A model generated the notes under the pieces. The model ran no database searches, was not told the DNA's origin, and saw nothing but the letters and a program-made list of their open reading frames with translations. A stretch of DNA of 64,000 nt from the NCBI GenBank assembly GCA_963682175.1, contig OY821781.1:37275254-37339253 (forward strand), given 5' to 3'. The stretch is from Triglochin maritima. Lineage: Eukaryota > Streptophyta > Magnoliopsida > Alismatales > Juncaginaceae. Positions 3,508 to 57,609 of this stretch are shown here, one piece after another (the first letter of the stretch is position 1; each line of letters opens with the position of its first letter). A program made the translations under genes and the position numbers.

Positions 3508-3826
3508 TGTTAGAAATTGGTTCAATTTTGTTATGGTGGAAACATGATAAAACAGTCGACCTGTGGAGAAGTCCGGTCGATCGAAATTATCAGCATCGCT
3601 CAGAGGTGAAGAACGATCGATCGAAAATAACAAACACTTTTCAGATGTGAATGTCGGCCAACCAATGGTGACTCCGGTCGACCGGAAAGTGGTTCAGAAC
3701 TGAAGATAACCTTGGAGTGGTCGACCGTTGCCTACGCTTTCTGCATGAGTTGTCTATTTAAGAGCTTTTGAGCGCTTGTATACAACACATTATTCTTATT
3801 TCCTTCATTGAGTATTGAGAGATTAG
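3508..3826 (+). repeat. B1 5' LTR, left part (U3)
   Basis: Aligns to the first half of the 3' LTR at 12329. Ends in the ATTAG target site (3822-3826) of solo LTR S1. Contains a palindrome array and a TATTTAAG box at 3755-3762. Confidence 0.85.
3553..3727. promoter_or_regulatory. Paired-palindrome array in B1 5' LTR
   Basis: CGGTNNACCG-type sites start at 3553, 3574, 3614, 3655, 3675 and 3718 (some with one or two mismatches). Pair spacings are 21 and 20 bp, and the first to third site is 61 bp. The array lies about 30 bp upstream of the TATTTAAG box at 3755. Function is inferred only from order and position. Confidence 0.7.
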
Positions 3827-4102
3827 TGTTGGCTTTTTGGCATTTTAATCTTAATTTTGATGATTAACAAACTAATATTATGCACATCTTCAATTAGAAC
3901 ACTACACACATCATATTGTCAAATTGCATAGATATTGTGTATTCCTAACAATGTAGGTGATCAAACCAATGGACTAATCAACTTCAAGATCAACGCTCAA
4001 GACTTGTAATCAAAACTCAAGGACTTCATATGTAATTTTCTATTTATTTTAGTTATAGGATCAAATGTACACTTGATGCACAAAGGATAAACCCGTCTCT
4101 AT

Positions 4103-4894
4103 TGGTCGACCGTTGGCCTCTCTGTCTACCAAACTTGTTCCCAACGGATGACTGAGTGACTCTCGGTGAACCGTGTTCTTAGAGTCAGTAACGACTTGAT
4201 CTTCCTGGAATCCTTTTTTCGGTGTACCGAACCATACCCGGCCAACCGTCGCCTTAGAGTCGGTAACCACTTGATCTTCCTGGAAACCTTGTGTCGGTTT
4301 ACCGACCTCTACCCGGTCAATTGTTTCCTTATCCCCAATAGCTTCAAAATTTTCTCTGGATATCTCTATTCGGTGTACCGAAGGAGTAACGGTCATCCAA
4401 ACGTCACTTATGTATTTTGGCCTAAACCACTTCATCTTATTGGCCACGTGGCACAAACTAACTCCAACAAACTTATCTTTTGTCGTTTAGCAGCAACCTT
4501 TGAAACGTCCATTTCGGTCTACCAATTACCCTTCGGTTTACCGAAGACTTGTTGTCAATCAAAACATAACGGCTATTTTTCCACGTAATATTTCGACTGT
4601 TATCGATAAACCAATTTCCCAGGCAATGTCAGCAGAAAACCCGTACATGTATCGGTCAACCGACATTGCCACGGTCTACCGAACAAGAACACCAACTCAC
4701 AACAATTTTTTACTGTCCAATTGGAACGGTGAACCGATGTGTGCTTGGTCAACCGAATTTAATTACTCGATATTAAGAAAAAGTTACTGGAAGTTGGTGA
4801 ACTGTTATCCGACCCATAGTCGGTCAACTGAGTTCTTCAATCTGACCAATCAACCCACATTTTGTCGGACGACCGTTGGTGTCCTGGTCGACTG
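4103..4894. promoter_or_regulatory. Paired-palindrome array in S1, exact 19-bp pairs
   Basis: Pairs of CGGTNNACCG-like sites start at 4103/4122, 4220/4239, 4295/4314, 4371/4390, 4515/4534, 4653/4672, 4727/4746, 4802/4821 and 4866/4885. Every pair is spaced 19 bp. Pair-to-pair distances cluster at 64-76 bp or about double that. The two central bases vary (CG, GT, TT, GA, CT, CA) while the arms CGGT and ACCG are mostly kept. The TATA box follows 98 bp after the last site. Confidence 0.8.
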
Positions 4895-4991
4895 AATTCG
4901 TCCTGAATTCTGCCCGAGCTTTAGTCACATGTTGTTTGTTATTGGTACAAACATCACCAACTTACCATAACGGTTCTATTTGTTTTGAAGG

Positions 4992-5000
4992 CTATATAAG
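4992..5000 (+). promoter_or_regulatory. TATA box of S1 LTR
   Basis: CTATATAAG, 98 bp after the end of the palindrome array; matches the LTR core-promoter position in S2. Confidence 0.65.
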
Positions 5001-5511
5001 ATTCACTTAAGAGACACATTCACTCTTCTTATTGCCAAAAATAAATCATACTCTTGTGCTCTCAATCTTCAAGCCTTCAAAGATCCACCAACTCTCAAAC
5101 TTCCATTAAATTCACTCCAAGCTTAATTCCAATCCTTGAGTGCATTCAAGTTAGAGTTCAACAACCACATTCAATTTCCATTGTGTTGTAAAGCTTCGAG
5201 GAAGAACCCTCTCGGGTTGTGAGAGGAGATCCGAGCAAGGCGAGGGTGTTCGCAAGACTCCGATTGTAAGAGGGTTTATCTTTGACCCGGAACGAAGATA
5301 ATAGTGAATTCTCAAGTAGGGATCAAAGGAGCGATCAGAACTTGAGGAGAGGACTAAATCACGGTGGTGTGATCGAACCTCTATAATCTCCAGAGTCATC
5401 TTGTAGTTTGCAATCTTTCTCTTATTATTTTAATTGTGCAATTGTTTAAGAAAATTATGAGATAATCTATTCACCTCCCTCTACATTAGTGATCGATCGA
5501 CTTACAATTAG

Positions 5512-5855: not shown

Positions 5856-5857
5856 GT

Positions 5858-5869: not shown

Positions 5870-5886
5870 TTTGATTGCTTCTATTG

Positions 5887-8211: not shown

Positions 8212-8216
8212 GACCC

Positions 8217-9495: not shown

Positions 9496-9871
9496 TGTTG
9501 ACTTTTTGGCCTTAATCTATGTTTTGACGATTTAATCAACCTAATCTTAATTGTGATCGTGTAGAATAACACACATGTTACATTGCATATATATTACTTT
9601 GTGCTAACCTCTACAGGTGATGAAAACTCAAGGAAGAAAGGAAATCAAGTCAAGACATGTAATCAAGTTTATTTGAAGACATGTATTTTGTATTTCTTTG
9701 AGTCTTAGGAACTTTGTGTAATTGAGCATACTTGAACTAAAAACTACTCAAATACTCACTAGGTTCCCTATAGAAGTCACACACGAAATTTCACATAATC
9801 GGGACTTCAATAGATCACCCAAATTTAGACCAGAAAACACTAAACCTGAACCCAAACTGTTTGCCCACATT

Positions 9872-10364
9872 CGGTCGACCGAAACAGACTGTTCGGTCGA
9901 CCGAGTGATCAATTAATCTGTTAGTGTATAACTGCCTAAGTTCGGTCGACCGTTCAGACCTTTTCGGTCGACCGAGTCCCAAGTATTTTCCGACCGTTTG
10001 TTTTGTCATATATATACCCAACGGTCGTATTCGTATTAACCAAAAATACCCCAAATACATTTCATGTATCGGTCGACCGAGGACCTTGTTCGGTCGACCG
10101 AATATCTGTCTCTTGACAAACTCGAATCTCCTGCTGGAATTCGGTCGCCCGTTAGACCTTGGTTCGGTCGACCGAATAGAACATTGTTTGTCAACCCCAA
10201 AGTGTCTGGTGTGATTCGGTCGACCGAACCTTATTCAGTGTTCGACCGATCACTTAAGTGTACCTAAGTCTTAGCGTTGGGCGGTCGACCGTTCCTTAAT
10301 CGGTCAACCGAACTGAGTTCAAAACTGCATAACGGTCGACCGTTCAGCCCGATCCGGTCGACCG
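9872..10364. promoter_or_regulatory. Paired-palindrome array in S2, about 22-bp pairs
   Basis: Pairs start at 9872/9894, 9943/9965, 10070/10091, 10142/10165, 10217/10239, 10282/10301 and 10333/10355: seven pairs, spacings 22, 22, 21, 23, 22, 19 and 22. Eleven of the fourteen sites are the perfect CGGTCGACCG. Pair-to-pair distances are 71, 127, 72, 75, 65 and 51 bp. Confidence 0.85.
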
Positions 10365-10460
10365 AACTCATCCAGAATTGGGTCCTGCGAGTTTCTATTT
10401 TGTGTATCTTACACCAACTTATACGCAATCAACCCCAACGGCTATATTCTCTCTAATGCT

Positions 10461-10470
10461 TATAAATAGA
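10461..10470 (+). promoter_or_regulatory. TATA box of S2 LTR
   Basis: TATAAATAGA, 97 bp after the array, the same distance as in S1. Confidence 0.7.
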
Positions 10471-11020
10471 GTTGTAAAACACATTTTAATACAACTCCTC
10501 CACACATATTTGCCTCCTACATTAGAGAGAAGATTCAAACACTCCAAGCCTCAAACCTTCCACACTTTAGTCATAAATCCAATCCTACTCAAGTGTGCTC
10601 AAGTTTAGAGAGTGTTGTTCCATTGTGAAAGAAGCAAGGGTCTTGGTGAAAACCCAAGACAAAGAGTATAGACTGCGGTGAGAGCCTGAAGTATCCCTCT
10701 CGGATTGTGAGAGGAGGAGCCAAGCTCGGCGAGGGTTGTTCGCGAGCTTGAAGATTGTAAAGATGTTCTCTCCCGGCCCCGAACGGGGAGTTGATAGTGA
10801 AGACGCGAGCGGAGCTCGAAGTGTCGAGCGGAGCTTGCAAGAGAGGACGTAGGCGGTGGCCGAACCTCTGTAAAAACCCCAGTGTTCCTTGTGGTTTGCA
10901 TTTTCTATTGCTTTACTTACTTGTCTATTTTAAATTCCGTTGTGCATAACTTGATTGCTTAAACAAGTAGGTAATTAGCCTAAAAGTGATTAGAATTAGA
11001 GACCCTCGCGATACGACAGA

Positions 11021-12330
11021 CACATAGATGAGGAGATCTATATGAAGCAGCATGATGAGTTCATTACACAAGGTAAAGATGGTCAAGTACGCAAGCTGAA
11101 GAAGTCCCTCTATGGGCTTAAGCAGTCGTCGAGGCAGTGGTACAAAAGGTTCAATGCATTTATGTTAAAGAATGATTTTGTACGTTGCGACTATGATATC
11201 TATGTTTACTTGCAGAGTCTCAAAGACGATTCATACGTGCTCTTGCTCTTGTATGTTGATGATATGTTGATCCCGGCAAAGGAGATGAAACATATAAATG
11301 ATCTCAAACAGAAATTTCGTGGTGAGTTTGAGACAAAAGATCTTGGGAGTGCAAATAAAATTCTCGGTATAGAGATCTCCAAGGATACCGAAAGAGGTGA
11401 AATTCTTCTCACTCAAAAAAGTTATATCCGGAAAATTCTCGAAATGTATAATGTTGAGAATGCTAAGCATGTTGCCACACCTATAAGTGCTCTATTCAAG
11501 CTCTCGATGAAGTGCAACCTCTCTACTGAAAAGGAAAGAAGAGATATGGATAGAGTTTCATATGCTAGTGCAGTCGGGTCCGTTATGTATGCTATGATCT
11601 GCTCTAGGCCAGACATTTCACACGCAGTTAGTCACGTGAGTCGTTATATAGCTAACCCAGGAAATGAGCAATGGGAAGCGTTGTAGTGATTGTTGAGGTA
11701 CCTGAAGGAATCGATTGATGTTAGTTTGAAGTACACCAAAGATGGAGCACAAAGGCAAGTGGAGATGTACGTAGATTCAGATTATACTAGTGATCTGGAT
11801 AAATGGAGGTTCACAACAGGATACTTGTTCACTCTAGGTGGAGAACCAGTAAGTTGGAGATCTGTTGAACACAATACTACCACGTTGTCTACGATGGAAG
11901 CAGAGTATATGATAGCCATTGATGCCGGAAAGGAAGTTATATGGTTGAAGAGTTTGGTAAGCCCTCTTGCAATGGAACAAGAAGTGACTAAATTGCATTG
12001 TGACAGCCAAAGTGCAATTTATCTAGCCAAAGATTAGACGTTCCACTTAAGAACCAAACATATTAAAGTAAGGTACCATAAGATCAGTGAGTGGATCGAG
12101 GAAGGCATGTTATTCTCAAGAAGATCAATATGAGTGAGAATCCAGCGGATATGATGACCAAGGTAGTCAGTTGGAAGAAGTTCGAGTTGTGCTCGAAGCT
12201 TCTCAACGTCCTCAGAAACTGAGAAGGATGAGCGTTCCATGGGGGTAGCGTCAACGGTGCTTTATGGAAGCACAAAGGAAACGGGTTAGAAGACGACTCA
12301 GGTAACAAATTCCAACCAAGGTTAAGATTG
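11021..12330 (+). pseudogene. B1 reverse transcriptase (C-terminal part) and RNase H
   Basis: Resumes inside RT at HIDEEIYMKQ; the preceding RT segment, including the block with the first catalytic Asp seen in B2 at about 53935-53960, is missing. KSLYGLKQSSRQWYKRF and the catalytic YVDD (11252-11263) follow, with ILGIEI and SRPDISHAVS. A TAG at 11684-11686 stops the frame. RNase H continues at 11690 with YVDSDYTSD, TMEAEY and CDSQSAI, and stops at a TAG near 12035. The protein would copy element RNA to DNA. It is truncated and stopped, so inactive. Confidence 0.88.
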
Positions 12331-13031
12331 TTAGAAATTGGTTTAATTTTGTTAAGGCAGAAACATGATAAAGCGGTCGACTGATGGGGAAATCTGGTGG
12401 ACCTAAATTATCAGTAGTGCTCAGAGGTGAAGAGCGGTCGACCGAAAATCACAAACGCTTTTCGGATGTGAAGGTCGGTCGACCAATGGTGACTCTGGTC
12501 GACCGGAAAGTGGTTCGAAGCTGAAGATAACCGTGGAGCGGTCGACCGATCGGTTACACCGGTCAACTATTTCCCACGTTTTTTGCAACTTTTTGTACGG
12601 TTTTCAGTCATCTATTTAAGGGCTTTTGAGCCGTAACTTGTATGCAACGCATTATACTTATTTTCTTCATTGAGTATTGAGAGATTAGGACTAGAGAGAG
12701 ATATAGAGTGCTTTGGAGGACATATTGTCTCCATAAACTTGTAATCTCGATTGCTTCTTTTGTTGGAGAAGCGGAAAAATAAAATGAAACTCGCAGGAGA
12801 CCCCCTAAAAATGTTGGTACGTTGCCAAACCTTTTAAAACGCTTGTGTCGTGGTTATTTTATGTGTATGTTTATTTATTGTTTTTTTTTAAATCTTTATG
12901 TGTGTCTTGTTGCTTATTAAGTTTAGGAGAGAAACAAAAGTTATTTTAAATTCCGCAATCAATATTCTTGTATTTCACTTGTGCATCTAATCCCGTCGTT
13001 GTGTAGTATAGCATCGTTTCGTCTCCCAACA
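12329..13031 (+). repeat. B1 3' LTR
   Basis: 703 bp, TGTTAGAAATTGG to CTCCCAACA, uninterrupted, and the reference for locating the two insertions in the B-family 5' LTRs. TATTTAAG box at 12613-12620. Confidence 0.88.
12374..12569. promoter_or_regulatory. Paired-palindrome array in B1 3' LTR
   Basis: Sites start at 12374/12395, 12435, 12476/12496 and 12539/12560; pair spacing 20-21 bp, unit distances 61, 41 and 63 bp. It is equivalent to the array at 3553-3727. Confidence 0.75.
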
Positions 13032-13036
13032 GCAAG

Positions 13037-13427
13037 TTCGATTAATTTTAGATAACTTTGATTAAACTATGATGCTTCTATTTTATCACATTACAATTTC
13101 AACCGTATGAGTTTTTTTCACTATATAAATTGTTAATAGAAATTGATACTGACTAATATCAAGGTTACGACTTCAAGAAACACAAACATATTGAGTTGAT
13201 TCTCGAACCACATTAAATGAAAATCAAAAGTTCTTGTTAAATCAAATTGAATTTATGATTACGTTTCCAAAACATAGCTTCAACACTTGACCTCTTGCTT
13301 CTTCGAGAAGATTGAAAAAGGAAACCCACCTTTTATCACACATCGATTCAATATCACAAAAAAGATGTCGAAACATACGTGCATGAAAATAAGATAACAC
13401 CACATAAGTGATCTTGCCTAGCTAGTT
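13037..13427. other. 3' flank of E1, no gene seen
   Basis: AT-rich sequence between the B1 right end and the E1 stop codon; expected to hold the E1 3' UTR (minus strand). No other feature seen. Confidence 0.5.
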
Positions 13428-16400
13428 CTACTTTACATTGTAAATTCTGTTTATCCAAACATTGTAAAGAATCATATGAAACAAATCATACTTCTTTGCC
13501 CTTTTATTCCACAGAAAGTGTCTTCTTACTTGTGTTACTCCTCTCTCCAACTCAAAATACTTAGACTCGGGAATGCCCAGCAAGATATCTCTCAACCTTG
13601 CAATGTCCTTTTCCGGCAAAATCACCGAAAATCGCGACCATTCAAATACTTCAAACAATGGAGGAACGTAGTTATCTGACATAATAACTGGAACACATCC
13701 ATAAAATATCGCCTCGACCACTCTTGGACTATTCACCTCAGACCCTCTTGGGCAAATGCAATACTTACTATTCTTCATGTGGTTCATGTACGGATACGTA
13801 GTCACTGTCTTCGTGGTCATGATCTCGTACTTGTTCCTTCTTTTTCTTTTTCTTTGATTTCTCTTGCGATTGTCGTCCACCGAGGTGGTTATGTTTACTT
13901 TAGTTGTGAGGCGATGTGGTATAGGTCCCGAGATAAGCATGTTTGGGTCTTTATTTTGCCAATGTTGAAGCAGTATCGGGCGAAGGTAGCCATGCATTTG
14001 ACCGGCAAAGTAGGCGAGCAAGGTGCGAAGGTGGGCCGGTTCACCACCGATGTGTTCAAGCGGATCGTTGGCATTGGGGACGTTCGTTTCAGGTAGAGAC
14101 ACATCCTTGCCAATACGGAACCCAATGTGGACATCGGCAACGCATAATGCTCTTATCGAATTATTCATGCTTTTTGATGTCTCTTGAGTCGCCTGTGAAT
14201 TTAATTACAGGAATCATAGACACTCAGCACATGTACTATGTCTAAAATTTGAAAATAATTAAGACAAGTCGAGTTTGAGCCGAGTTTAGTTTAATTTGGG
14301 AATCTTTTATAACTCGAAAAGTGAAAAAAATATAGCTATATAGGGGAGAGAGATCCAGTAGCGAAGAAAATTATTGAATTGTGGAAAATTTGGTTGGTCT
14401 ATTACCTTAACAAAATCTAAATACTTAGGTGAAAGATAATTGTTCAAACTCTATTATAAAGTTTGTTACACATAACTTGTGTTTACCAAGACTATATGTT
14501 CACATATAAGGTCAAGGTGATTTGGATGTATACTTGGATCTCACATACATAAAGTAATTGGGAATTAGATAAAAGAGAAATGGTAGTTTTGACATTGAAT
14601 TTGGTCGGGATATTTTTTTTCATTTTCTCTCCAATTTTAAAAATAAAGTTAGAAGACCATAGCCATCTTCCTTTCTATTTCTCTTCCATTCTTTCCTGTA
14701 AAATCATTACACAAGCACTAGACATGCGCTACTTACTTTTCTTTTATTTTCTCTCCATTTCTACCGTTAAGACAGTTATCCAAACACACCATTAAATACA
14801 ATGGTGGATAAAAAGTGATATAAGGTAGAATAACATTTACCCAATCATGACAAGCCGCGAGAAAATGGTCTGCTCCTTCGGTTCTATTCCAAAAAGGATA
14901 TTTGGAGGCGACGGTGCTAACGTAACTCCTCAAATGAGCAATGATGTTCTTCTTACTATGCGAGTTCGGCACGTACAATTTTTGTCTAAGAATACGTGAG
15001 CTAAAGGGCAAGTAGAACAAATGGGCTTTCAAAGGATTGTCGGTAACGAATTGCCTGTTGTCCTCCATTTGTTTCATGAACCACCCCTCGGACGAGTAGA
15101 TTCCGGTGAAGAATGGTTTGTGGAAGATGGGTTGATCACCTTCTTTGTATATGTACACCTTCAACATTTTCTCCATCAACTCATAACTCCTACAACGACA
15201 AGAATTGGGATTTGATCTTATGTTAGATGTGTTGGTTTTTATATCAACCTCTTCTTATGTAAGATTTATTTGGTTTCTACATCAGTTTCCTTTCTTCAAG
15301 ACACATTTAATTTGATGTAATCTAGAACATGATTGTTGTTGTAGAGTACTATATTTTCCTTGACGTGATCTATTGAACTACTTAGTCACAAATAAGTATT
15401 GTTTAGGCCAACACTATCGAAATCGTTCTAGTTGGTAAAAACACTGATTAAGAAAAGAAAGAAAAAAAACTGCTTGAGACCAAACACTCACTTATTTAGA
15501 GTTATGAGTGTTGATAAATATAAAAAATTGATGAAACTCAACAATAAATTTTAACAATGATATAAAAACATGATGTTTCATCCAACTGAAAGAAGTTTCC
15601 CGTCACCATTAGAACATATAATAGAGTCATAGTTACAAATAATTACCACCTTATGAATGCAGAGAAGTTACGAAAAACCGACGGATACAAGCTTTGATGT
15701 TCAGTCACAAATGGAGCATTCTCGATATCTGATTTTGCATCTAACAATTGTCGATCCGCTTCAGATGACCACAAAGGCTTCTGCGACAATCAATAACCAA
15801 ATAGATCACTGAAAGATCAAAGTAGACAAATAGATGCTATTATTATTGTTTTATGCTTTTGATGATGGGTAAATATTTCTATGCCTTAATTACAGTTTAG
15901 GAAGGCAAACTGAAACTAAGACATAATTTAAAACCGCAAGTTCATATTAAACCGCTAACGATCATTGTACAATAACCATACCACTGAGTCTGGAGAAGCA
16001 CGATTCTTTTGCAATGCGCATTCCATTTCCAAATATGTCATTGGCTTATAAATTTTTCTCGATTTTGTTCTCTTACTTTCATTTCGCTTCTTTGCAATGG
16101 GGCTAGTTGTCGTTGGGGTGGAAATAGAGCCTTTCAATTTGTCCTTCGGTTTGAAAACTATAGAAGCCAAACTAGAGTTAGCAGTATTATTTGTCGTCGG
16201 AATACCGTCATTAACCATAGCGGTCTTATTCCCAACATTGGACATGAACTGCTCCCTTGTTTTCTCATGATAATTGTACATTTCTTTGGATTTTCGACTC
16301 TCGCCATCTTTTGATAATTCAGTTGTGTTTGCTAAATTGTCTGAAATGAAGAAACCTTTTGGTCTTTCAGTCGGAAAGATTTCTGAAGGTAGCACAAGTT

Positions 16401-16503
16401 TCTGAAACGCGACGACGACAAAGAACATCGCGATCATCAATAAGATGAGCTTCGCAGTTCGAGTTTTCCATAGTTTTTGTAACACAAGAATGTAATCATC
16501 CAT
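13428..16503 (-). CDS. E1: exostosin-family GT47 glycosyltransferase, four coding exons
   Basis: Coding exons are complement(13428..14192, 14841..15189, 15650..15780, 15982..16503), all with GT-AG borders and consistent phase, giving 588 residues. A cytosolic tail and one membrane helix (about residues 18-36) mark a type II Golgi protein. A Ser/Thr/Lys-rich stem follows, then the exostosin domain: SYELMEKMLKVYIYKEG, LFYLPFSSR, WNRTEGADHF, CHDW, GKDVSLPET, FFAG-like YFAGQMHGYLRP, KYCICPRG, VNSPRVVEAIFYGCVPV and HFLWNKRAKKYDLFHMI. GT47 enzymes of this class build cell-wall glycans; donor and acceptor cannot be told from sequence. Between GPIPHR and YMNHMK lies an unusual insert of about 35 residues rich in K/R. 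No stop or frameshift is seen, so it is probably functional. E2 is its tandem paralogue. Confidence 0.88.
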
Positions 16504-17570
16504 CGATAATACTTGTTTATGAACTTGATCGAGATTTGGCTACCAATTCAAAGCCTGAAAATTTATCAAAAGAAAAGTAACTTTCTGAAATTTTACCAGG
16601 AGTATATACAGAACTACAAATAGTTCCTAATTGTTCAGTGGAATGCTTTGGTCATGAATGTTCACTTCGTAGTGATTTCATTAGTATCTAAGTTCAAGAG
16701 ACAACACTAAAAGTTTTTTTTTTTTTGAAACTCTCAATTCGAAGAAGAAATCATACTTGACAAACAGAGAACTGTTTCTTATGTCAATTATTGCCTGTAA
16801 AAAAAAGTAAGTTGCTCATCTCAATCCTTGAAAAGTGAGTAAATTCAAAGGTTGGAAAAAAAATGTAAACACAAGCAAGAGATGTCTGATTCCGATATTA
16901 ATCTGCTGTCTTTCAGAAACTAGAAAAAAAAACATACATATAAAAAAAATGTAATAAGTTCTGACTTGGAACACACAACAGTGCAAGAATTGGGACATTT
17001 TTTTATATCTCTTGACAAATTTAAAATGCTAATATTCTGAAATAAAAAAGTGTCTCACTCATAATTATCATTAATTCCTCCACCACAACTGTGTCTGTGT
17101 AAACCCATTAAAATCAGGAATATACAATACTAATAAATATTCTTTAAAAATTCAGACCTTTTGGTACTTTGGGTCCTAGTGCTACTTCATATATTTCAAA
17201 AATATATTAAAAATCCAACCAAAGTTACCAAACAAACAAATCCCAAGTCAAAACGAAATTCCAACTGAAACCCACTTCCAAGAACTAAAAATTACAAAAA
17301 TTAAAATAATTAAAATAGCTTCTTCCTAACAAGAACTTTTTCTTTTCTTCTTATTTGCCTAACTTTATAGAGACGTATATATATATATATATATATACCA
17401 TAGTAACCACACATAAACTCAAGAAGAGACCTCACCTTATTTCCTGATTCCATAAGTTTGGTTGAAAGCTTAGGATTCTGGGGAATTGAGGTGATTTTAA
17501 TTGAAGGGTGTATGTTTCGTGATGAAGAAAGTTCTTGACTGTCCTCCCAACAAACAGTTTTAAGTACTTC
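16504..17570 (-). promoter_or_regulatory. E1 5' UTR, leader intron and probable promoter
   Basis: A TTTCAG acceptor at about 16555-16560 lies 51 bp upstream of the ATG. An AAG|GTGAG donor lies at 17435, suggesting an 880-bp leader intron; E2 has the same arrangement. TACTTAAAA (17558-17566, minus) sits in the aligned place of the clear TATTTAAA of E2 and may be the TATA box. The open frame at 17310-17576 spans this leader and is not a separate gene. Confidence 0.6.
17376..17397. repeat. (TA)11 microsatellite in the E1 leader intron
   Basis: Uninterrupted TA dinucleotide run of about 22 bp. Confidence 0.9.
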
Positions 17571-20368: not shown

Positions 20369-20547
20369 ATGGGCACAATTTTGCTTGATTTGTTAAGAGA
20401 TTAGTGTTGATCATGGGTTGGATTTATTCCAATTATGGTCAAACGGTTTTGATGATGATTATGTATCAATTTGTGATTGGTTTTAAGGAGAGAAAAGCAA
20501 GAGATCATGTGTTAGTGGTTAACTCACGATGTGAGTGTTGGGAGAGT

Positions 20548-20557
20548 CTATAAATAG
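20548..20557 (+). promoter_or_regulatory. TATA box of A3 LTR
   Basis: CTATAAATAG, 180 bp after the end of the array, the same distance as in A1 and A2. Confidence 0.7.
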
Positions 20558-39928: not shown

Positions 39929-39964
39929 TTGCCCATGTTTCTGTACGATTTTTAAGTCGTTTAT

Positions 39965-43716: not shown

Positions 43717-43946
43717 CGGTCGACCGGTTAGCAGTAAACGGTCGATCGGTAGGGCACGGTCGACCGGACATGTCTCGACCGATAACAGGGAATTTTCATC
43801 TGTTCGAACGGTCGACCGAAAGTGATCGGTCGGTCGACCGAACATTGCGATGGAATAGTTCCTGTTACGAACGGTCGACCGAGCTATTGAACGGTCGACC
43901 GAAACTGGTTCGAGCGGTCGACCGAACCTCCAAAAACGGTCGACCG
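43717..43946. promoter_or_regulatory. Palindrome array in A1 5' LTR
   Basis: Eight perfect CGGTCGACCG copies start at 43717, 43757, 43809, 43831, 43872, 43892, 43915 and 43937, with variant sites at 43739 and 43772. Neighbour distances are mostly 18-23 bp or about double. The array ends about 180 bp before the TATA box. Confidence 0.88.
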
Positions 43947-44124
43947 GTCCAGATGGTTTATGCAGAATTAATTTAAGAATTAATTAGATCATGCATGGAA
44001 TTGGTCCATGATTGATTTAATTCGTGGCTAATATTATTTATTAATAAATAATGGATGGTTAGATGGAATTTTGCATGAAATCATGGGCAAGAGGTTGCAC
44101 ATGAATAGGTAATTTGGAGAGAAC

Positions 44125-44134
44125 CTATAAATAG
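44125..44134 (+). promoter_or_regulatory. TATA box of A1 5' LTR
   Basis: CTATAAATAG; the 3' LTR copy is at 51877-51886. Confidence 0.75.
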
Positions 44135-44597
44135 AGGTTATCTCATTGCCTTCCTACATCTTAATTAATATTGCTTTTCATGCAAAATCTCTCTCCTTAA
44201 TTCTCCACGAAAATTCCACAAATTCTTAAGTTTAGTTTAGTTCTTAAGAGATCATCTTCTCAAGGGAATTAAAGAGGGGTTAGTAATTGGATTCTAAACC
44301 CTATCGGAGATTGAGAGACTAGCTTCCCTCTCTCCGATCTTGTTTAGAGTTTTGTGAATACTCGGAGGCATCCGACGCAGCGAGGAGCATCCCCAACGTC
44401 TCCGAATCTTCAAGAAGTTTTAGAGAACTTCTAGGTATGAATTTCGGAGTCCTTGTTTGTTTTAATAGAGTTTTGAAACTAGATGTTAAAACAAACCGAT
44501 GCATGCATGAAATAAATCAAAGAAAATTGTAATTGATCCTTATTATACATAAAAATTTCGAAAATATATATGTATAATTAAACATGAAATTCTACAG

Positions 44598-44609
44598 TGG
44601 TATCAGAGC
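44598..44609 (+). other. Primer binding site of A1 (initiator Met-tRNA)
   Basis: TGGTATCAGAGC one base after the LTR. Confidence 0.92.
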
Positions 44610-46100
44610 ATAGGGTTCAATTTTCTTATGATTTATGGTTGTAAACAAATTTAGTTTACCATCTAGGATTTAAACAATTCGTTTTACCGGTTTTTTCGGT
44701 CTTTAAATGTTTGTTGAAATAATTCTTTGTAATAATTCGTTTTAAATGTTTTGAATGTTTAAAACATGTCATGAAATTACTAGAATTATGATTTGGACAT
44801 TAGTCCAACATACAATAATTTCGTTTTATTTAAAAACAATTATTTTGTAAGAGAATCAATAAAACCGAAAAACTGCAGTTCATCTTTCCATTGGAAATTG
44901 GATGGACAGCGGTTCAAAAATAGTTTTGAACTATGGATGAATGAAAAATGTTTTTAATGGATTTCAAAATATTTTTCAAAGAATTGTTGAGAATTCTGGA
45001 TGATTGATAAATTAGATTCTGTAGTTTATAGCAATTGCGTGCATGGATGCTTGAGTTGCTTTGCAGGGTTGTGAGTTTATATGTTCCAAATCAGACACTA
45101 CAAATGTATGTAATTATTATTATACAGGGGCTTATGTATGTAAAAGCCAAAATTCTCTCTATTTCCGTCTTTTAGATAGTTGCATTAGTATATGAGAGGT
45201 TTTTACATAGGACTTGCACTAGTCGGTTTTATCGAATGTGAGGAACATGTTTATTTTCTGTAAAATCTACATCTCCGGTGCAAGAGGAAGTCGCCGCTGT
45301 AGCGCATCGATCGAGGATCGAAGATCAGGGATCGAGGATCGAGGATCGAAGGGAACATATAAACTCACACGATGTGGATTGTGTGAATGTTTACTTTCTG
45401 TTTTTAATTTCTGCTATGCATGTGATGAATGTGGTGAATGTTAGGATGTGTACGAATATTAATATGCATGATAACCTAAAATTCTAAATCACATGTTAAA
45501 ATTGTCCAACAAAAATTAAGAATAGTTTTCCTTCTTATTTCATCCACTAGCAGCCATTGATCGAGGGATACTCTGCTCGCCCTTAGCGGGAGATAGCTCC
45601 CTCTATCTTTAGGAATACTGGGAGATATAAAGGTTGTCTGTTGTTGTGCCACAATTAAATATATGAGGTGTGTCTCACCCTAGTGAACCCCAAGTATGTT
45701 TAGTTGTGAATACAATAGATAAACGTATCTCGTATCAAATGAAAATAAGTTTTCTTAACATTACCTAGAGCCCTCGCTCGATTTTGGGAAAAAGTTTTTC
45801 TTACGAGGATAGGTCGTATTCCCTCATAATTAAAACGACAAGAGTCACAAGAGTTTGAAGATGCTAAATGTTGCTAAAATTCAAAAAGGTTGTGATTAGA
45901 AAATGTTTTTTACCTTGATATTGTAATGTATTCGATAGCCCTTAGCTAGTCTATATTACAATTGATGGGATCTTGGATTGTTGCATTTATGAGCAAAATT
46001 TTTATTTGCAACATTTACATTTATATATTCGATATATGTATGCATGTGTATTAAAACATAAAATTGGCATTAAAACCTGAATGATTTATTTTGTAGAAAA
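44610..46100 (+). other. A1 long untranslated leader
   Basis: About 1.5 kb before gag with no credible gene. Contains a short GGATCGA minisatellite (about 45305-45352) and the conserved CTGCTCGCCCTTAGCGGGAG block (about 45573). Probably carries packaging signals; that is inference. Confidence 0.65.
45305..45352. repeat. GGATCGA minisatellite in A1 leader
   Basis: Six or so 7-8-bp units of GATCGAG/GATCGAA type in tandem. A2 has its own version at 58278-58322 with different variants; A4 has only a remnant. Confidence 0.75.
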
Positions 46101-49100
46101 ATGTCGAACATCCAACCTATCATACGATCCATGATAGAAAAACACCCTTTAGCAAATGATGGCTCAAACTTCATTAGTTGGCAACTCAAACTCAACATCG
46201 TGTTAAAGTTTGAGAAACTATCTCACATTTTGGAAGGTCCAATCCCAAAGTGGAATGAGAGATTAACCGATGAAGAGAAAGAGGCTAAAGCCAAGTGGGA
46301 AGACCAAGAGAACCAAGTTCACAGTCTTACGCTAGCATCCATGGGTGACTCGCTTCAAGCAAAATACTTGGATTCAAAACCCAAGAAGACCATGGAGGCT
46401 TTATCAAAGATGTTCATGGATAGTGCCCGAAAGGAGCGCTATAAGACCACCATCGCACTCACAAGGTGCCATATGGCGGAGGGAACATCGGTATCTATGC
46501 ATTTTCTCACGATGCAAGGATACCTTGAGAAGTTGGCAAAGCTCTCTTCACCAATGCCCGAGGACATTGCTGAAGATATGATTCTTGGCTCTCTAGCCCC
46601 GTCCTTTAAGGACTTTGTGATGCACTATCACGTGCGTGAAAAAGGGGTGAGTCTTGAGGAGCTTCACAACGCTCTCAAAACTGCTGAAGTTGACATGGGC
46701 AAGGGTAGGGACAAGCAAGTCCTTGCCGTCCATGGGAGGGGCCATAAGATTGGTAAAGGAAAGGGCAAATCTACCAAAAGTGGTTCAATTAAGAGCAAGG
46801 GAGTAGGAGGTGCTCGTGCGAGTACCTCGAGGGGGAAATCTCAGAAATCTCCAACTCCCAATACGGAGTGCTTTCACTGCGGTGAAAAGGGACACATCCG
46901 GCCAAATTGCCCCAAGTACAAGGAAGACATTGACAACGGAGTGATTGAACGAAAGTGCCCCAAAAAGGTCAAAGGTATATTTGTTATTGAAATAAATTTA
47001 GCCACCTCTGTCCAGGATTGGGTAATTGATACCGGATTTTGTGCTCAGATAGTTTATAATGTGCAGCTACTCATGGATAGGAAGGAACTCGTAAGGAACG
47101 AGGTAGAATTGAAGGTCGGAAATGGTGCGAACGTGTCTGCGGTTGCACAAGGTTCTGTGGTGCTTCAATTGTGTAGTGGTTTAAATTTATGTCTAAAGAA
47201 TGTTTATTATGTACCTTCGATTAGCAAGAATATTATTTCTGTATCATGTCTGGATATGGATAATTTTAATATAAATATTTCAAATTCTTGTTTGTCTATA
47301 TCGAAGAATGGTGTGTTCTATGCAAATGCGTTCATAAGGAATGGTCTCTATTTGCTTGAATTGGATAATAAATAAATCTTTAATATCAATAACAAAAGAC
47401 TTAAGACCACTCACGAGAATGATACTCTCTTGTGGCACTATCGTCTTGGTCACATAAATGAAAAGCACATCAAGAAATTGCAAGAAGCTAACCTTCTTGG
47501 TCTACTTGATTTTAAATTATTGGAGACGTGCCAACCATGTCTAATGGGAAAAATGACCAAAAAGCCTTTCAAGAAGAAAGGCCGAAGGGCGAGTGGCTTG
47601 TTGGATTTGATACATTCCGATGTATGTGGTCCAATGAGTACTAGTGCACGAGATGGTTTCAGGTACTTCATTACGTTCACGGATGATTATAGTCGTTATG
47701 GCTATGTTTATCTAATGAGAAACAAAAGTGAATCCTTTGACAAGTTCAAAGAATTCAAGAATGAAGTAGGGAACCAACTCGACAAGAAAATCAAGTCTCT
47801 ACGAACGGATCGTGGAGGTGAGTACTTAAGTGCCGAATTTGACTCATACCTAAAGGAGTTTGGTATTGTACCTCAACTCACCCCTCCCGGTACACCTCAG
47901 TGGAATGGGGTATCCGAAAGGAGGAATATGACATTGCTCGATATGGTTCGGTCAATGATGAGTCATGCGAAATTACCTCTTTACTTTTGGAGTTATGCAC
48001 TGCAAACTGCGGCTTACACACTAAATAATGTTCCATCCAAATCCGTGGAGAAAACTCCTTATGAGCTATGGAGTGGTAAAACACCTAAGCTCAGTTTTCT
48101 CAAGATTTGGGGTTGTGAGGCTTACGTCAAGAGATTGATGTCGACCAAACTTCAACCAAAAGCGGATAAGTGCTTCTTTATTGGTTATCCTCGTGAGACA
48201 AGAGGATACTACTTTTGGCATATCACCTCCAATCGAGTGATTATAGAGAGGGATGCCACATTTCTGGAAAAGGAATTTCTAGAAAGAGTAAAAAGTAGTG
48301 GGAGTAGGGTTGTGCTTGAGGAAACTCAAGATACTCTACAAGATCATGACATGAATAATGACATTCAAGATCATGAAGGCCCAACCGAGATTCCTTTGGT
48401 TAGTGGGAGCGTGAGCGAGAGACCATCACAAGAAATTGTGAGAGAATCTCAATCATCCCCACCAAGTGTACGTTCAAGAGTTGAACGTGAACCCACTCCT
48501 CAAGAGATTGTGGAAGAAGTTCGAGAGACACGAGAAGAACCAAAAGAACTTAGAAGGTCAACAAGGGAAAGGAAGAAACCCGATTTGTATCTGGGACTTC
48601 ATGAAATCATGGTACTAGATACCAATGATCCCTTAACCTTCCAATAGGCAATGGAAAGGGAAGACTCCAAACTATGGCTTAAGGCCATGGAATCCGAAAT
48701 AGAATCCATGTATGATAATCAAGTATGAGACTTGGTTGACCTTCCTCAAGGGAAAAAGGTCATTCATAATAAATGGGTTTTTAAGAGGAAGATCGACATG
48801 GATGGGAACTTGACAACCTACAAAGCGAGGCTTGTAGCAAAGGGTTTCACTCAAGTTCAAGGAATTGACTATGATGAAACTTTTTCACCGGTTGCCATGT
48901 TCAAGTCTATTCGGATCATGCTCGCTATTGCCGCATTTCACGATTATGAAATATGGCAAATGGATGTCAAAACGGCGTTCCTGAATGGGAACTTGGAGGA
49001 GGATGTGTACATGATACAACCTCAAGGTTTTGAAGATCCAAACAATAGCGAGAAGGTATGCAAGCTTCAAAGATCCATCTATGGATTGAAGCAAGCATCA

Positions 49101-50213
49101 AGGAGTTGGAACAAACGCTTTGACGAGGAAGTGAAGAAGCTTCACTTCATTCAAAGTAAGGAAGAACCTTGTGTATACAAGAAGGTTAGTGGGAGCCATG
49201 TAGTATTCCTAATCCTATATGTCGATGACATATTGCTTATGGGCAATCATATTCCTTTGCTTGAGCAAACGAGAAGTTCATTGAAATCTGCATTTTCGAT
49301 GAAAGACATGGGTGATGCTCAATACATCTTGGGAATCAAGATATATCGAGATAGACCCCGTAGACTCATTGGCCTCAGTCAACGTGCATACATTGACAAG
49401 GTCTTGGAAAGGTTCAAGATGAACAACTCCAAAAAGGGCAGTGTGCCAATGAGTATGGGTGTGCAACTCAAGAAGTCTCAACGTGCGCAATCACGTAAGG
49501 ACTTAGAGTACATGAAGGATGTCCCTTATGCTTCGGCAATTGGGTCGATCATGTACGCGATGACTTGCACAAGACCAGATGTCTCGTATGCTCTAAGCGT
49601 GACAAGTCGTCACCAATCCAACGCAGGTCCTGAGCATTGGACTGCGGTCAAGAATATCCTGAAGTACCTTAACCGGACTAAGGATAAGATTCTTGTTTAT
49701 GGAGGACAAAGGGAATTGATAGCTGAAGGTTACTCAGATGCGAGTTTCATGAGTGATCCAGACGATAGAAGGTCGCAATCAGGATACGTCTTTCTTCTGA
49801 ATGGTGGAGCTGTGAGTTGGCGTAGTTGGAAGCAAAGCACTACAGCCGACTCAACCACTGCTTCCGAAGTAATGGCTGTCGCTGAAGCGAGCAAGGAAGG
49901 AGTGTGGATTAAGAATTTCCTTGAAGAGCTTGGAGTAGTTCCCTCGAGCGAGGGACCAATAGAGCTATTTTGCGACAATAGTGCATCTATCTCGCAAATC
50001 AAGGAACCCAAATCACACCACAAAGTGAAGTACATGGATCGTAAGTACTTTGTGATGCGTGACCTCATCGACGAAGGCAAAATAAATCTGTTATGGGTGG
50101 ACACCAACAGCAACACAGCTGATCCATTCACAAAACCCTTATCCCAAGCCAAGGGCGAAATGCATTTCGAGTCCATGGGATTGAGGAACCATGTATATTG
50201 GCTTGATGATTGA
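46101..50213 (+). pseudogene. A1 Gag-Pol polyprotein, three nonsense mutations
   Basis: A single reading frame encodes Gag, protease, integrase, RT and RNase H of a Ty1/copia element. Gag holds the zinc knuckle CFHCGEKGHIRPNC. Protease has DTG, followed by F where A2 has S. The integrase finger HYRLGHIN...CQPC and core HSDVCGP (Asp codon 47619-47621), RTDRGGEY and NGVSERRN are complete. RT has QMDVKTAFLNG and YVDD. RNase H has YSDASF, ASEVMA and CDNSA. The frame is stopped by TAA 47373-47375, TAG 48645-48647 and TGA 48727-48729, each a single-base change relative to A2. RT-RNase H alone remains open from 48732 to 50213. Enzymes cannot be made as one polyprotein, so mobility would need help from another copy. 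Confidence 0.92.
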
Positions 50214-50286
50214 TATGTAATGGGGTTTACCCTAGTTATTATTGTTTTATGCATTGAGTATGTATGAGAAAGAAAACTTTAATAAC

Positions 50287-50297
50287 AAGTGGGAGAT
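50287..50297 (+). other. Polypurine tract of A1
   Basis: AAGTGGGAGAT immediately before the 3' LTR; the same tract precedes the A2 and A4 3' LTRs. Confidence 0.85.
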
Positions 50298-52348
50298 TGA
50301 AGGGAATGTGTTCTAAAAGTTTTACTTTTAAATGTCAATTATTATGAATTGAATGAGAAATCATTTTGTTCCTTGTTTATGTTATTCGTCTTTTAGAAGT
50401 GTTAAGGAAGAGGCTCTTGGTCCTTAACCGTAGAGCTCTAAAAGATATTGGTTTACATAAAACAAAAGATATTCGCAATCATGGTAACTAACATGGAACA
50501 TTAATTACCGAGTTAAGATTGTCGTGTTGGTCATAGATCATTGTAGCTCTACAAGTGAGTGACAACACGGGTATGCAAAAGAGGAAAATATTACTTTTGT
50601 ATACTGAATAGACCTAATAAGTAAAATATTATAGAAATATGTTTCTGTGTCATTAATATTTTACTGTGTCTTTGGTTCTTTGATATGAGACTTATATCTA
50701 ATCACTTAAGGAATACTTAATTAGATCAGTGTCTTGAACTATCGATCAGTGTAGTGTAAAGGCATTGGTTGGTTAAGTACTACTTTTGTTGGAGAAGGTA
50801 GTTAGTCAAAAGACTATCATTGCCCCTCTTAATTGAGTGATGATATTAGTGGGCCCCTTGATAAAGCAAAGTTATAATGTGCACAATGTGATTTGAGTTA
50901 AGTCACATATTTATAACTAGCTTAAAGAGATCAAGAAATGAATACTAAGACAAAGATGACACAATACTACTTTGTGTGTATTCTTAATATCATGAGGCAA
51001 GGGACGGACACAAGTGGTGCACGCCATCACTAAATGGATCGGGTTTTGGTTCGAGTGGAATTAAGACATCTAACTAATTGGGAGCTATAATGTGTAGCTA
51101 GATACCGCTTATAGCTTGTGATATTAAGCCTTTAATATCACTGCCAACTTAGTTTAGATCCTCCCATAGGTCACACCGCAAAACTGGGAAACAAGAAATG
51201 GGGATTTTGAGTTCATAAGATGTGTCGGGTTTCATGTAGAAAATATGACACATGGGGTGAACAAGCAAAATCAAAATTATGTTGTGATTAATAACATAAT
51301 TAGAATCTAAATTAAATTCATATGTGATGTAAATATTATGCGGTGTAATGATTGATCAATACATAGGATAATATGTTACATAAGTTGTGGATTTACTACT
51401 AATCCCGAAATGTCAAATTTTGTAGGGGTTAAACCGAAATTTGACAAGTCTGCAAAACAGTGCTCAAACGGTCGACCGGTTAGCACTAAACGGTCAATCG
51501 GTAGGGCACGGTCGACCGGACATGTCTCGACCGATAACAGGGAATTTTCATCTGTTCGAACGGTCGACCGAAAGTGATCGGTCGGTCGACCGAACATTGC
51601 GATGGAATAGTTCCTGTTACGAACGGTCGACCGAGCTATTGAACGGTCGACCGAAACTGGTTCGAGCGGTCGACCGAACCTCCAAAAACGGTCGACCGGT
51701 CCAGACGGTTTATGCAGAATTAATTTAAGAATTAATTAGATCATGCATGGAATTGGTCCATGATTGATTTAATTCGTGGCTAATATTATTTATTAATAAA
51801 TAATGGATGGTTAGATGGAATTTTGCATGAAATCATGGGCAAGAGGTTGCACATGAATAGGTAATTTGGAGAGAACCTATAAATAGAGGTTATCTCATTG
51901 CCTTCCTACATCTTAATTAATATTGCTTTTCATGCAAAATCTCTCTCCTTAATTCTCCACGAAAATTCCACAAATTCTTAAGTTTAGTTTAGTTCTTAAG
52001 AGATCATCTTCTCAAGGGAATTAAAGAGGGGTTAGTAATTTGATTCTAAATCCTATCGGAGATTGAGAGACTAGCTTCCCTCTCTCCGATCTTGTTTAGA
52101 GTTTGGTGAATACTCGGAGGCATCCGGCGCAGCGAGGAGCATCCCCAACGTCTCCGAATCTTCAAGAAGTTTTAGAGAACTTCTAGGTATGAATTTCGGA
52201 GCCCTTGTTTGTTTTAATAGAGTTTTGAAACTAGATGTTAAAACAAACCGATGCATGCATGAAATAAATCAATGAAAATTGTAATTGATCCTTATTATAC
52301 ATAAAAATTTCGAAAATATATATGTATAATTAAACATGAAATTCTACA
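50298..52348 (+). repeat. A1 3' LTR
   Basis: Same length as the 5' LTR, about 99% identical by eye. Array at 51469-51698, TATA at 51877-51886. Confidence 0.95.
51469..51698. promoter_or_regulatory. Palindrome array in A1 3' LTR
   Basis: Mirror of 43717-43946. One of the few LTR differences turns the variant site CGGTCGATCG into CGGTCAATCG; all eight perfect sites are unchanged. Confidence 0.88.
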
Positions 52349-54212: not shown

Positions 54213-55582
54213 TGATGCATTGCATACATTGCATCATATGTCTTTCATTTAGATTAATTTTATATCAATAAATGCTACTAAGGTATGTGTTTAGTCTTAT
54301 TTACAGAATACAGAGACCTGAATGCAAATTACCCATATCCCGAGCATAAACACGTGCAAGAGACTCATTTCTATCATAAAGACCAAGTTCAAGATTATCG
54401 GGGTTCAAATTGAAGTCCATCCAAGCATAAAAGCATTCAAAGACCTAATTACAAAAAGGCCAGAGACTTAAGCACAAAAGTAGTCAGGAACTTAATTGCA
54501 AAAAGCCGAGGACCCGACTGCAAATTACGAGTACCAAAATATTATTTTGGAGAAGTTTTAAAGAAAAAATCAAATTTGGATCTCCAAATATATGAAGAAA
54601 TTAATTCGGAGCTCAAAAGAAAGGAAAGAAATCGATCCGGACGCGCAAAGGACAACTAAAACATACCATAAACACACAGGAAAAATCTGGATCGATTCTG
54701 AGCCAGAAAGGTGGCGATTTCGCCGCACCTCATGTACAAAATGCGGCGGATTAGCCGCACAAAAGTTGATCCGTGTGCTCAAATTTTTACCAATGTTGTT
54801 TTGACGCGTGTACTTTCCTTTTATGTATTGGGATCCCCGGTTGAGGCTATAAATAAGGTTGAATCATGTATTGAAACATGCTTCTCCCTTCCCCTTCCCT
54901 TTAGCAATAAAATTCTGTTCGTTTATTTCATGTTTTTAGTTTTCTTTCGTAGTTTCCATGAGTTTCTAACCCTCTCCATAGGGTGAGGGTGATGGATTTA
55001 AGGTGATGAGAAGAAGAATTATGTTATTATTTTAATTTCATGTTAGTATATTTTGATTACTTGAGTTTATGTTGAGTCATTTATCATGTAATGCTTTATA
55101 ACTAATGTGAATTATTATAAGTTTCAGATTTCTCTAAACAAAACCCGATATCTAAACCCCCACCCGATGGACTCTCATCCATATTTGCTTTCTTCTTAGT
55201 TTTTTTTGTTCTTGCTTTAGAAAATTGAAAATCCAAAATTCTCAAACCAACCTTATTTCTCTCTTTCTTTCCTTAATCGAAAATCACAAAAATATAAATA
55301 TCTCTCTTTCCTTGTGTTCGACTGGTACTTGTCGCGTCTTCATCGACGCCGTGCACTTGCGTCATAAATAAAATTCTCATCAAGTTTTTGGCGCCGTTGC
55401 CGGGGAGGAGACGAAGATTTTGTTTATTTTTGTTGATTTCGATTCTATTCTGTTTATCGTGTGCGCGATCTAACTATTTGGGTTTACGTTTCAGGAGAAA
55501 ACGGAGTGCGCGGCGAAATCCAGCCACAGTTGGAGCAAGAAGATCGGCGAAATTGCCGCACCCAAAGAACAACCTACGGCGG
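54213..55582 (+). mobile_element. Ty3/gypsy element G2: 5' LTR, primer site, start of internal region
   Basis: LTR 54213-55382 (TGATGCATTGCAT... to ...TTCTCATCA, 1170 bp) is followed by a primer site and 175 bp of leader, then A2 interrupts at 55583. TATA box CTATAAATAA at 54847-54856. The internal genes, if any, lie beyond A2 outside the window. Unlike G1 it is not a solo LTR. Confidence 0.85.
55389..55407 (+). other. Primer binding site of G2 (Asp-tRNA type)
   Basis: TGGCGCCGTTGCCGGGGAG, the primer site typical of many plant gypsy elements of the Athila/Tat group. Confidence 0.85.
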
Positions 55583-57609
55583 TGAAGGGAATGTGTTCTG
55601 AAAGTTTTACTTTTAAATGTCAATTATTATGAATTGAATGAGATATCATTTTGTTCCATGTTTATGTTATTCGTCTTTTGGAAGTGTTAAGGAAGAGGCT
55701 CTTGGTCCTTAACCGTAGAGCTCTAAAAGATATTGGTTTACATAAAACATAAGATATTCGCAATCATGGTAATTAACATGGGACCATTAATTACCAAGTT
55801 AAGATTGTCGTGTTTGGTCATAGATCATTGTAGCTCTACAAGTGAGTGACGACACGGGTATGCAAAAGAGGAAAATATTACTTTTGTGTACTGAATAGAC
55901 CTAATAAGTAAAATATTATAGAAATGTATTTCTGTGTCATTTATATTTTAATGTGTCCTTGGTCCTTTGATATGAGACTTATATCTGATCGCTTAAGGAG
56001 TTCTTAATTAGACTAGTGTCTTAAGCTATCAATGAGTGTAGTGTAAAGGCATTAGTTGGTTAAGTATAACTTTCGTTGGAGAAGATAGTTGGTCAAAAGA
56101 TTATCATTGCCCCTCTTAATTGAGTGATGATATTAGTGGGCCCCTTGATAAAGCAAAGTTATAATGTGCACAATGTGAGTTGAGTTAAGTCACATATTTA
56201 TAACTAGCTTAAAGAGATCAAGAAATGAATACTAAGACAAAGATGACACAATACTACTTTGTGTGTATTCTTAATATCATGAGGCAAGGGACGGACACAA
56301 GTGGTGCACTCCATCACTAATTGGATCGGGTTTTGGTTCGAGTGGAATTAAGACATCTGACTAATTGGGAGCTATAATGTGTAGCTAAATACCGCTTATA
56401 GCTTGTGATATTAAGCTCTTAATATCACTACCAACTTAGTTTAGATCCTCCCATAGGTCACGCCACAAAACTGGGAAACGAGTAATGGGGATTTTGAGTT
56501 CATAAGATGTGTCGGGTTTCATGTTGAAAATATGACACATGGGGTGAACAAGCAAAATCAAAATTATGTTGTGATTAATAACATAATTAGAATCTAAATT
56601 AAATTCATATGTGATGTAAATATTATGGGGTGTAATGATTGATCATTACATAGGATAATATGTTACATAAGTTGTGAATTTACTACTAATCCCGAAATGT
56701 CAAATTTTGTAGGGGTTAAACCGAAATTTGACAAGTCTGCAAGACTGTGCAAATGGTCGACCGGTTAATGGATAACGGTCGACCGAAGGTGCACGGTCGA
56801 CCGGACGTGTCTCGACCGATAACAGGGAATTTTCGTCTGTTCGGAACGGTCGACCGAACATTGCGATGAAATATTCTACGTTAAGAACGGTCGACCGAAT
56901 CTCGCACGGTCGACCGAAATTGGGTTCGAGCGGTCGACCGGACCTTCGTAACGGTCGACCGGTCCAGACGGTTTTATCAGAATTAATTTAAGAATTAATT
57001 AGATCATGCATGAAATTGGTCCATAATTGATTTAATTCGTGGCTAATATTATTTATTAATAAATAATGGATGGTTAGATGGAATTTTGCATGAGATCATG
57101 GGCAAGGCGTTGCACATGAATAGGTAATTTGGAGAGAACTTATAAATACAAGTTTATCTCATTACCTAATTAATTCATTCATTATTTTCTTGAGCAAAAT
57201 TCTCTCTCCATAATTCTCCACGAAAATCCCTTAATTCTTAAGTTTAGTTTTAGTTCTTAAGAGATCATCTTCTCAAGGGAATTAAAGAGAGGTTAGTAAT
57301 TAGATTCTAAACCCTATCGGAGATCGAGAGACTAGCTTCCCTCTCTCCGATCTTGTTTAGAGTTTGGTGAATACTCGGAGGCATCCGGCGCGGCGAGAAG
57401 CATCCCCAACGTCACCGAATCTTCAAAAAGTTTTTGAGAACTTCTAGGTATGAATTTCGGAGTCCTTGTTTGTTTTAATAGAGTTTTGAAACTAGATGTT
57501 AAAACAAACTGATGCATGCATGAAATAAATCAAAGAAAATTGTAATTGATCCTTATTATATATATAAATTTCGAAAATATATATGTATAATTAAACATGA
57601 AATCCTACA
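55583..57609 (+). repeat. A2 5' LTR
   Basis: 2027 bp, TGAAGGGAATGTG... to ...AAATCCTACA. TATAAATA at 57141-57148. Confidence 0.93.
56754..56961. promoter_or_regulatory. Palindrome array in A2 5' LTR
   Basis: Sites start at 56754, 56776, 56794, 56809 (half), 56847, 56888, 56907, 56931 and 56952. Order and the first distances (22, 18, 15) match A1. One A1 unit (the doubled site at 43809/43831) is present only once here. Confidence 0.86.

Follow-up and report, generated by a model that had tools for sequence, protein, structure and literature searches.

Ordered arrays of a 10-bp palindrome, CGGTNNACCG, lie in the long terminal repeats (LTRs) of several types of Copia retrotransposon in the genome of Triglochin maritima, and in the arrays examined their sites tend to be spaced by whole turns of the DNA helix. 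The arrays were studied in a window of 64,000 nucleotides (contig OY821781.1, positions 37,275,254 to 37,339,253 of the forward strand, or G000:C13:37275254-37339253) and in the whole genome (1.063 Gb, 167 contigs). The motif is enriched, in LTRs of the window it stands upstream of a TATA-like sequence, and the motif and largely its 10.5-bp phase are kept while the spacers turn over. We consider it likely that these helically phased palindrome clusters serve as an operator of many sites, where a protein that binds as a dimer, probably a transcription factor of the host, would drive retrotransposon transcription.

Abundance, register and conservation of the palindrome

The window contains 60 CGGTNNACCG sites, 45 of which are CGGTCGACCG, against 0.18 expected; the arrays described in the original prediction are real. 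The sites cluster at about 3.6-4.9, 9.9-10.4, 12.4-12.5, 20.0-20.4, 31.8-32.2, 39.7-39.9, 43.7-43.9, 51.5-51.7 and 56.8-57.0 kb. Genome-wide, CGGTCGACCG occurs 359,535 times. A control palindrome of equal base composition and CpG number, CGACCGGTCG, occurs 4,679 times, and some of these control sites could overlap arrays. The reversed sequence of CGGTCGACCG occurs 90 times, and CGACCGGTCG is the fairer control because the reversed sequence lacks CpG. On viral contigs, 9 stretches with a pair of sites 19-23 bp apart were found; each holds 2-4 sites in DNA of 53-69% GC, so these are not arrays.

The sampled arrays contain 229 exact sites, of which 81-82% have A or T at positions -2 and +2, thus the true recognition site may span about 14 bp. 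The one-mismatch sites of these arrays (n=109) comprise 48 CpG transitions and 48 transversions, the other 13 being transitions outside CpG. One mismatched form, CGTTCGACCG / CGGTCGAACG, recurs (G3>T in 14/109 and C8>A in 13/109) and occurs in arrays at L015:1980-2780, L018:6650-7700 and L021:5050-5900. The change is matched in the two halves of the dyad, which CpG decay does not explain, and this form may be a second site type.

Close pairs predominate throughout the genome, as had been claimed for the window. Start-to-start distances between exact sites on the forward strand gave 1,870 pairs at 14-18 bp, 86,109 at 19-23 bp, 7,505 at 24-28 bp, 3,384 at 29-33 bp, 394 at 34-38 bp, 12,819 at 39-43 bp and 14,834 at 44-48 bp. 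The pair two turns apart is the predominant one, and the bin at 3.5 turns (34-38 bp) is almost empty. An array at G000:C1:1329263-1329412 has a 47-bp tandem unit with gaps of 25 and 22 bp, and departs from the 10.5-bp register. The original prediction gave no coordinates for its family labels (A, B, S1), and the matching used here is our own: its S1 was taken as the array at 4103-4875, which is distinct from the LTR at 42546-44596 that is named S1 below. The nine 19-bp pairs it reported in that array were not recovered; when up to one mismatch was allowed in each site, 4/4 close pairs had the 19-bp spacing. The fixed spacing of 20-21 bp proposed for other arrays did not hold; close pairs across the rest of the window are 18-24 bp apart.

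Since raw pair counts are weighted by copy-rich families, the phase was tested on array classes. Across 13 classes, the distances from site to site follow a 10.50-bp period at phase zero (family bootstrap 10.44-10.60). For distances up to 400 bp the Rayleigh statistic was 75.5 at a period of 10.50 bp vs 12.7 at 10.2 bp. The register reaches about 15 turns and recurs in classes with almost no common spacer sequence, which extends the proposal that paired sites face the same side of the DNA well beyond the pair. Tests at the family level and on unique distances were used because controls with jittered gaps leave some common descent within an array. Six control 10-mers were also tried; the two with sufficient pairs (n=80 and 57) had no register (mean resultant 0.13 and 0.14), and the other four had 1-6 pairs.

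The sites are conserved while the sequence between them changes. Related copies from 8 families were compared using a third copy to pick the columns; in the pooled, overlapping comparisons, core positions differed in 10.6% and spacer positions in 39.4%, and the spacers are thus far less conserved than the sites, as predicted. When CpG positions alone were considered, 12.4% of core vs 37.5% of spacer comparisons differed; this relation was reversed in the small B2 family, which has 15 spacer columns. Intervals between sites common to relatives (n=282, again from overlapping comparisons) were unchanged in 144 cases and changed in 138. A scripted count of the changes gave 105 of 1-2 bp, 11 of 3-8 bp, 5 of 9-12 bp, none of 13-17 bp and 17 of 18-24 bp. 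Spacing changes are therefore mostly of 1-2 bp or of about one or two turns. In the LTR sequence flanking the arrays, seven type-1 copies have 40 distinct gaps of 1-7 bp.

Arrays of different classes have no sequence block in common once the sites are masked. Comparison of masked arrays across classes gave 13 matches: 8 join type-1 arrays, 4 represent a single weak match of 25 bp (E 0.002), and the last spans 17 bp. Masked arrays gave 0 matches to reversed arrays. Some arrays do have clear tandem units; in the array from C1:242611 similar spacers are alternately 73 and 64 bp apart.

Copia elements that carry the arrays

The window is a nest of Copia retrotransposons next to exostosin-like open reading frames (ORFs). 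The LTRs and the coding region of the main element are listed in Table 1. In nine LTRs, at 3508, 3827, 9496, 12329, 18801, 33351 (minus strand), 42546, 50298 and 55583, the array is followed by a TATA-like sequence.

Table 1. Array-bearing LTRs and associated features of the window
Feature	Positions	Strand	Details
Tork-like Copia LTR, first part	3508-3826	+	sites at 3574, 3675 and 3718; TATTTAAG at 3755; interrupted by solo LTR 3827-5506
Solo LTR, second type	3827-5506	+	ATTAG flanks; array ~4103-4875, centres varied, pairs 19 bp apart; TATATAAG at 4993
LTR of a kind similar to the 3827 LTR (end approximate)	9496-10990	+	array 9872-10364, 12 exact CGGTNNACCG plus one with 1 mismatch; TATA at 10461
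Tork-like Copia LTR copy (end approximate)	12329-13032	+	sites 12374-12548, gaps 61, 41, 20, 43; TATTTAAG at 12613
Type-1 LTR copy, B1 (end approximate)	18801-20990	+	array 19986-20368, spacers unlike S1; TATA at 20549
Type-1 LTR copy, B2 (inner end approximate)	31161-33351	-	array 31840-32189, centres CG, CT, TA, GC; TATAAAAGG at 31663
Third Tork-like LTR copy (start approximate)	39680-39960	+	array 39729-39928, 6 sites, 5 with 1 mismatch
Type-1 Copia 5' LTR, S1 (2,051 bp)	42546-44596	+	99.07% identical to 50298-52348; flanked by TACTC target-site duplication; TATA at 44126; primer-binding site TGGTATCAGAGC follows LTR
Array of S1 5' LTR	43717-43946	+	8 exact sites plus one with 1 mismatch; gaps 22, 18, 52, 22, 41, 20, 23, 22
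Type-1 gag-pol ORFs	46074-50213	+	matches to Retrotran_gag_2, Pol_BBD, rve and RVT_2; zf-CCHC just under cut-off
S1 3' LTR	50298-52348	+	array 51469-51698; TATA at 51878; preceded by a single polypurine tract, AGTGGGAG-AT
Type-1 5' LTR, S2	55583-57609	+	array 56754-56961; TATAAAT at 57141; 92% identical to S1 LTR

In the Copia element at 42546-52348, here called type 1, the array occupies LTR positions of about 1,170-1,400, upstream of TATAAATAG. Over at least 1.1 kb, identity to the S1 LTR is 78% for the copy at 18801 and 84% for the minus-strand copy at 33351. The LTRs at 18801, 33351, 42546, 50298 and 55583 were classified as one LTR type because they share 78-99% identity over at least their first 1.1 kb. 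These include the LTRs that we take as families A and B of the original prediction, which had been considered unrelated. Despite the LTR sequence shared outside them, the arrays of B1 and B2 align neither with each other nor with those of the other copies. A truncated type-1 copy at 8217 (76-80% identity) has no array.

Besides gag-pol, the one type-1 ORF of at least 150 aa is a 182-aa ORF antisense to the end of pol, although shorter or spliced genes are possible. The pol stop codon lies 84 bp before the 3' LTR. The type-1 reverse transcriptase (RT) is 34% identical to the RT of the element L010 described below and 36-38% identical to the Tork-like RT, in a comparison that held no labelled reference RTs.

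The LTR at 9496 has a weak stretch in common with the solo LTR at 3827-5506 (69% over 214 bp) and a similar start; the solo LTR is likely of a Sirevirus-like type. Another Copia LTR, for which "Tork-like" is our presumptive label and not an assignment to a named lineage, also has the motif and was missing from the families listed in the original prediction. Its copies at 3508, 12329 and about 39680 have 3, 5 and 6 sites, respectively, at no more than one mismatch. The third copy is interrupted after its array, and TATTTAAG follows at 41109, past the interruption.

Seventeen regions were also sampled at round coordinates, and one of them, L010, holds a third kind of Copia pol. An array with exact sites at 4652-5164 stands directly 3' of this pol, and the element is itself interrupted by a type-1 element. 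The L010 RT is 30% identical to the Tork-like RT, and its named relatives, from Citrus, Vitis, Hibiscus and Cajanus, are 68-70% identical; none carries a Sirevirus label. Neither an env ORF nor a Sirevirus polypurine tract was seen in the element, where one AGGGGGAG at 3583 lies inside pol. The L010 element is likely to belong to the Sireviruses. Three RT types are thus associated with arrays. Copia pieces in three other sampled regions (L009, L014 and L019) had no CGGTNNACCG within their 10 kb, so not every Copia carries the motif.

The Pfam scan of 14 window ORFs identified Copia-type retrotransposon domains, exostosin and the plant mobile domain (PMD), with RXYLT1_C and DUF6524 below cut-offs only; 3/14 had no Pfam match. 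Pieces of a PMD gene lie on the minus strand at 772-2070, with one ORF above the Pfam cut-off and one below. An exostosin GT47-like gene is present as two related copies, with minus-strand ORFs at 13350-16611 and 35192-38510, that are 78-89% identical in pieces; the exostosin match itself is to the ORF at 35258-36046. Another region, L011 (G000:C1:25000001-25010000), consists of 7,500/10,000 bases N, and its remainder contains near-identical units of about 493 bp repeated in tandem.

A proposed multi-site operator and its alternatives

In the proposed mechanism copies of a dimeric DNA-binding protein would line up next to one another on a single face of the helix, upstream of the TATA-like sequence in U3, and the assembled protein would activate transcription of the retrotransposon. 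The bound protein is probably dimeric because the palindrome has dyad symmetry. That symmetry, the whole-turn register, the position upstream of the TATA-like sequence and the conservation of motif and phase together fit a multi-site operator read from one face. We favour a host factor because elements with differing pol have common sites and because type 1 has no further sense ORF of at least 150 aa. One and the same protein may serve all element types. If arrays grow by duplicating units of about two, six or seven turns, the added sites would stay in register, and out-of-register units would be lost. LBD proteins are, we assume, candidate binders; a literature search on LOB-domain CGG palindromes gave nothing usable. 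The original prediction of a platform for a dimeric factor in several retrotransposons is supported as to same-face placement; "unrelated" was wrong for the LTR copies that we take as A and B, and the binding is what we infer.

Several results weigh against this reading. The bin at 44-48 bp (4.5 turns) is fuller than that at four turns (14,834 vs 12,819 pairs), which is no simple oscillation, and among the 44-48 bp places listed many are triads of 22+25 bp, so that copy-rich families are off phase. Phasing was not significant in 6/35 arrays taken alone (solo1 0.073, L010b, a type-1 copy, 0.25, L030 0.069, L021b 0.095, L028 0.084 and L029 0.051), and 2/13 class representatives, L024 and L038 with 4 sites each, had none. 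The 13 classes stem from fewer independent LTR types, as three are type 1, and solo1 and L024 have LTR sequence in common. Adjacent gaps of more than 28 bp gave a weaker signal (n=66, Rayleigh 7.5, best period 10.35), and six of the arrays were picked from the list of 19-23-bp pairs, which favours the two-turn pair. Finally, array RNA folds far better than shuffled sequence, with z scores of -8.05 (43700-43960) and -10.54 (9860-10380).

It is unlikely, though the best of the alternatives, that the arrays are bound by an anti-silencing protein resembling VANC, which would be encoded by one element type, act in trans on the sites that other Copia types have in common with it, and remove silent marks. 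The VANDAL/VANC arrays of Arabidopsis are likewise dense arrays of short motifs in non-coding transposon DNA that grow by tandem duplication, and VANC6 motifs occur in the unrelated AT9TSD1 as the palindromes here occur in several element types (PMC5735166). The L010 array, directly 3' of pol, also occupies the place of the additional repeated motifs (RMs) of env-bearing Sireviruses according to Bousios et al. 2010 (PMC2829016). Against this, VANDALs are DNA transposons with a known element-encoded binder, and the VANC21 motif, YAGTATTAY, is non-palindromic and arrayed in a single orientation; the words "helical", "spacing" and "periodic" are absent from PMC5735166. The type-1 ORFs described above offer gag-pol and the 182-aa antisense ORF.

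The strong folding of array RNA fits a different reading, in which the palindromes act as clustered hairpins of the LTR transcript that would supply small RNAs and promote silencing by the host, the phase being incidental. The palindrome-rich LTR regions of maize Sireviruses are small-RNA hotspots (PMC5311732, PMC10760457). Their palindrome, CACCGGACNNNGTCCGGTG, is clustered in a cis-regulatory region of the LTR, as the sites here are clustered in LTRs, and is the commonest motif of structured Helitron regions as well. It has been interpreted as RNA secondary structure, with no helical phasing mentioned in the accessible text of PMC10760457. A register of 10.5 bp from one palindrome to another belongs to double-stranded DNA and has no obvious role for hairpins in RNA, and a hairpin needs no fixed core, yet the core is conserved. 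We regard this reading as improbable. Small-RNA effects may exist beside the operator role, yet they leave the register unexplained.

Rotational positioning on histones by GC-rich palindromes in helical register would account for a helical period and for the A/T at -2 and +2. The usual nucleosomal period is about 10.2 bp, which was clearly worse than 10.50 bp at long range, and positioning of nucleosomes does not require one exact 10-mer; this reading is very improbable. That the arrays are without function, a satellite-like unit of about two turns that was copied around with its register kept by descent, is scarcely credible in spite of the tandem units at C1:242611, because masked arrays of different classes have no common block and the CpG-rich core positions diverge about four times less than the spacers. 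The recently copied satellite block, one of the refutations named in the original prediction, was not found.

Relation to the Sirevirus motif and significance

Under the operator reading, the nearest precedent is the RM of Sireviruses. CGGTCGACCG is the RM of a Vitis Sirevirus (Bousios et al. 2010, PMC2829016). The RM is a CpG-rich palindrome with a CGG-CCG core; each element has at least eight copies, which lie in the LTR ahead of the TATA box. The arrays here resemble it in these features, and the S1 5' LTR, the 9496 LTR and the 3827 LTR have 8, 12 and 8 exact sites; the Tork-like copies, with 3, 5 and 6 sites, have fewer than eight. In that study the RM was described as specific to Sireviruses, with none in the 30 classic elements of the data set (PMC2829016). 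The arrays differ in that they are also found in a Copia element with a classic polypurine tract and a linker of 84 bp between pol and 3' LTR. Sirevirus linkers average 1.5 kb and classic ones 0.078 kb (PMC2829016), and the Sirevirus polypurine tract, AGGGGGAG, multicopy in the linker of Sireviruses, is absent from that of type 1. The available text of PMC2829016 mentions no helical spacing of RMs, and a search of the literature by title, which did not cover subscription papers, found no earlier report of phased LTR palindromes among the titles listed. The motif itself was already known; the present analysis adds its presence in a Copia element without two Sirevirus signatures and in a Tork-like Copia, its copy number and its helical register.

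A wider reading, which we put forward tentatively and hold to be less likely than the operator itself, is that several Copia lineages of one genome use a single promoter code. About 360,000 palindromes in whole-turn register would recruit one protein as a one-sided filament. The code would reach beyond Sireviruses, selection would act on helical phase itself, and elements with little else in common would depend on the same factor.

In the literature examined, plant LTR palindromes have so far been interpreted either as hairpins in RNA or as regulatory boxes of no specified kind. The 10.5-bp register says that the palindromes act as double-stranded DNA. The arrays, with 360,000 perfect sites, are bait for a protein that several types of retrotransposon would need, and through such a protein alone much of this genome's repeat load might be controlled.

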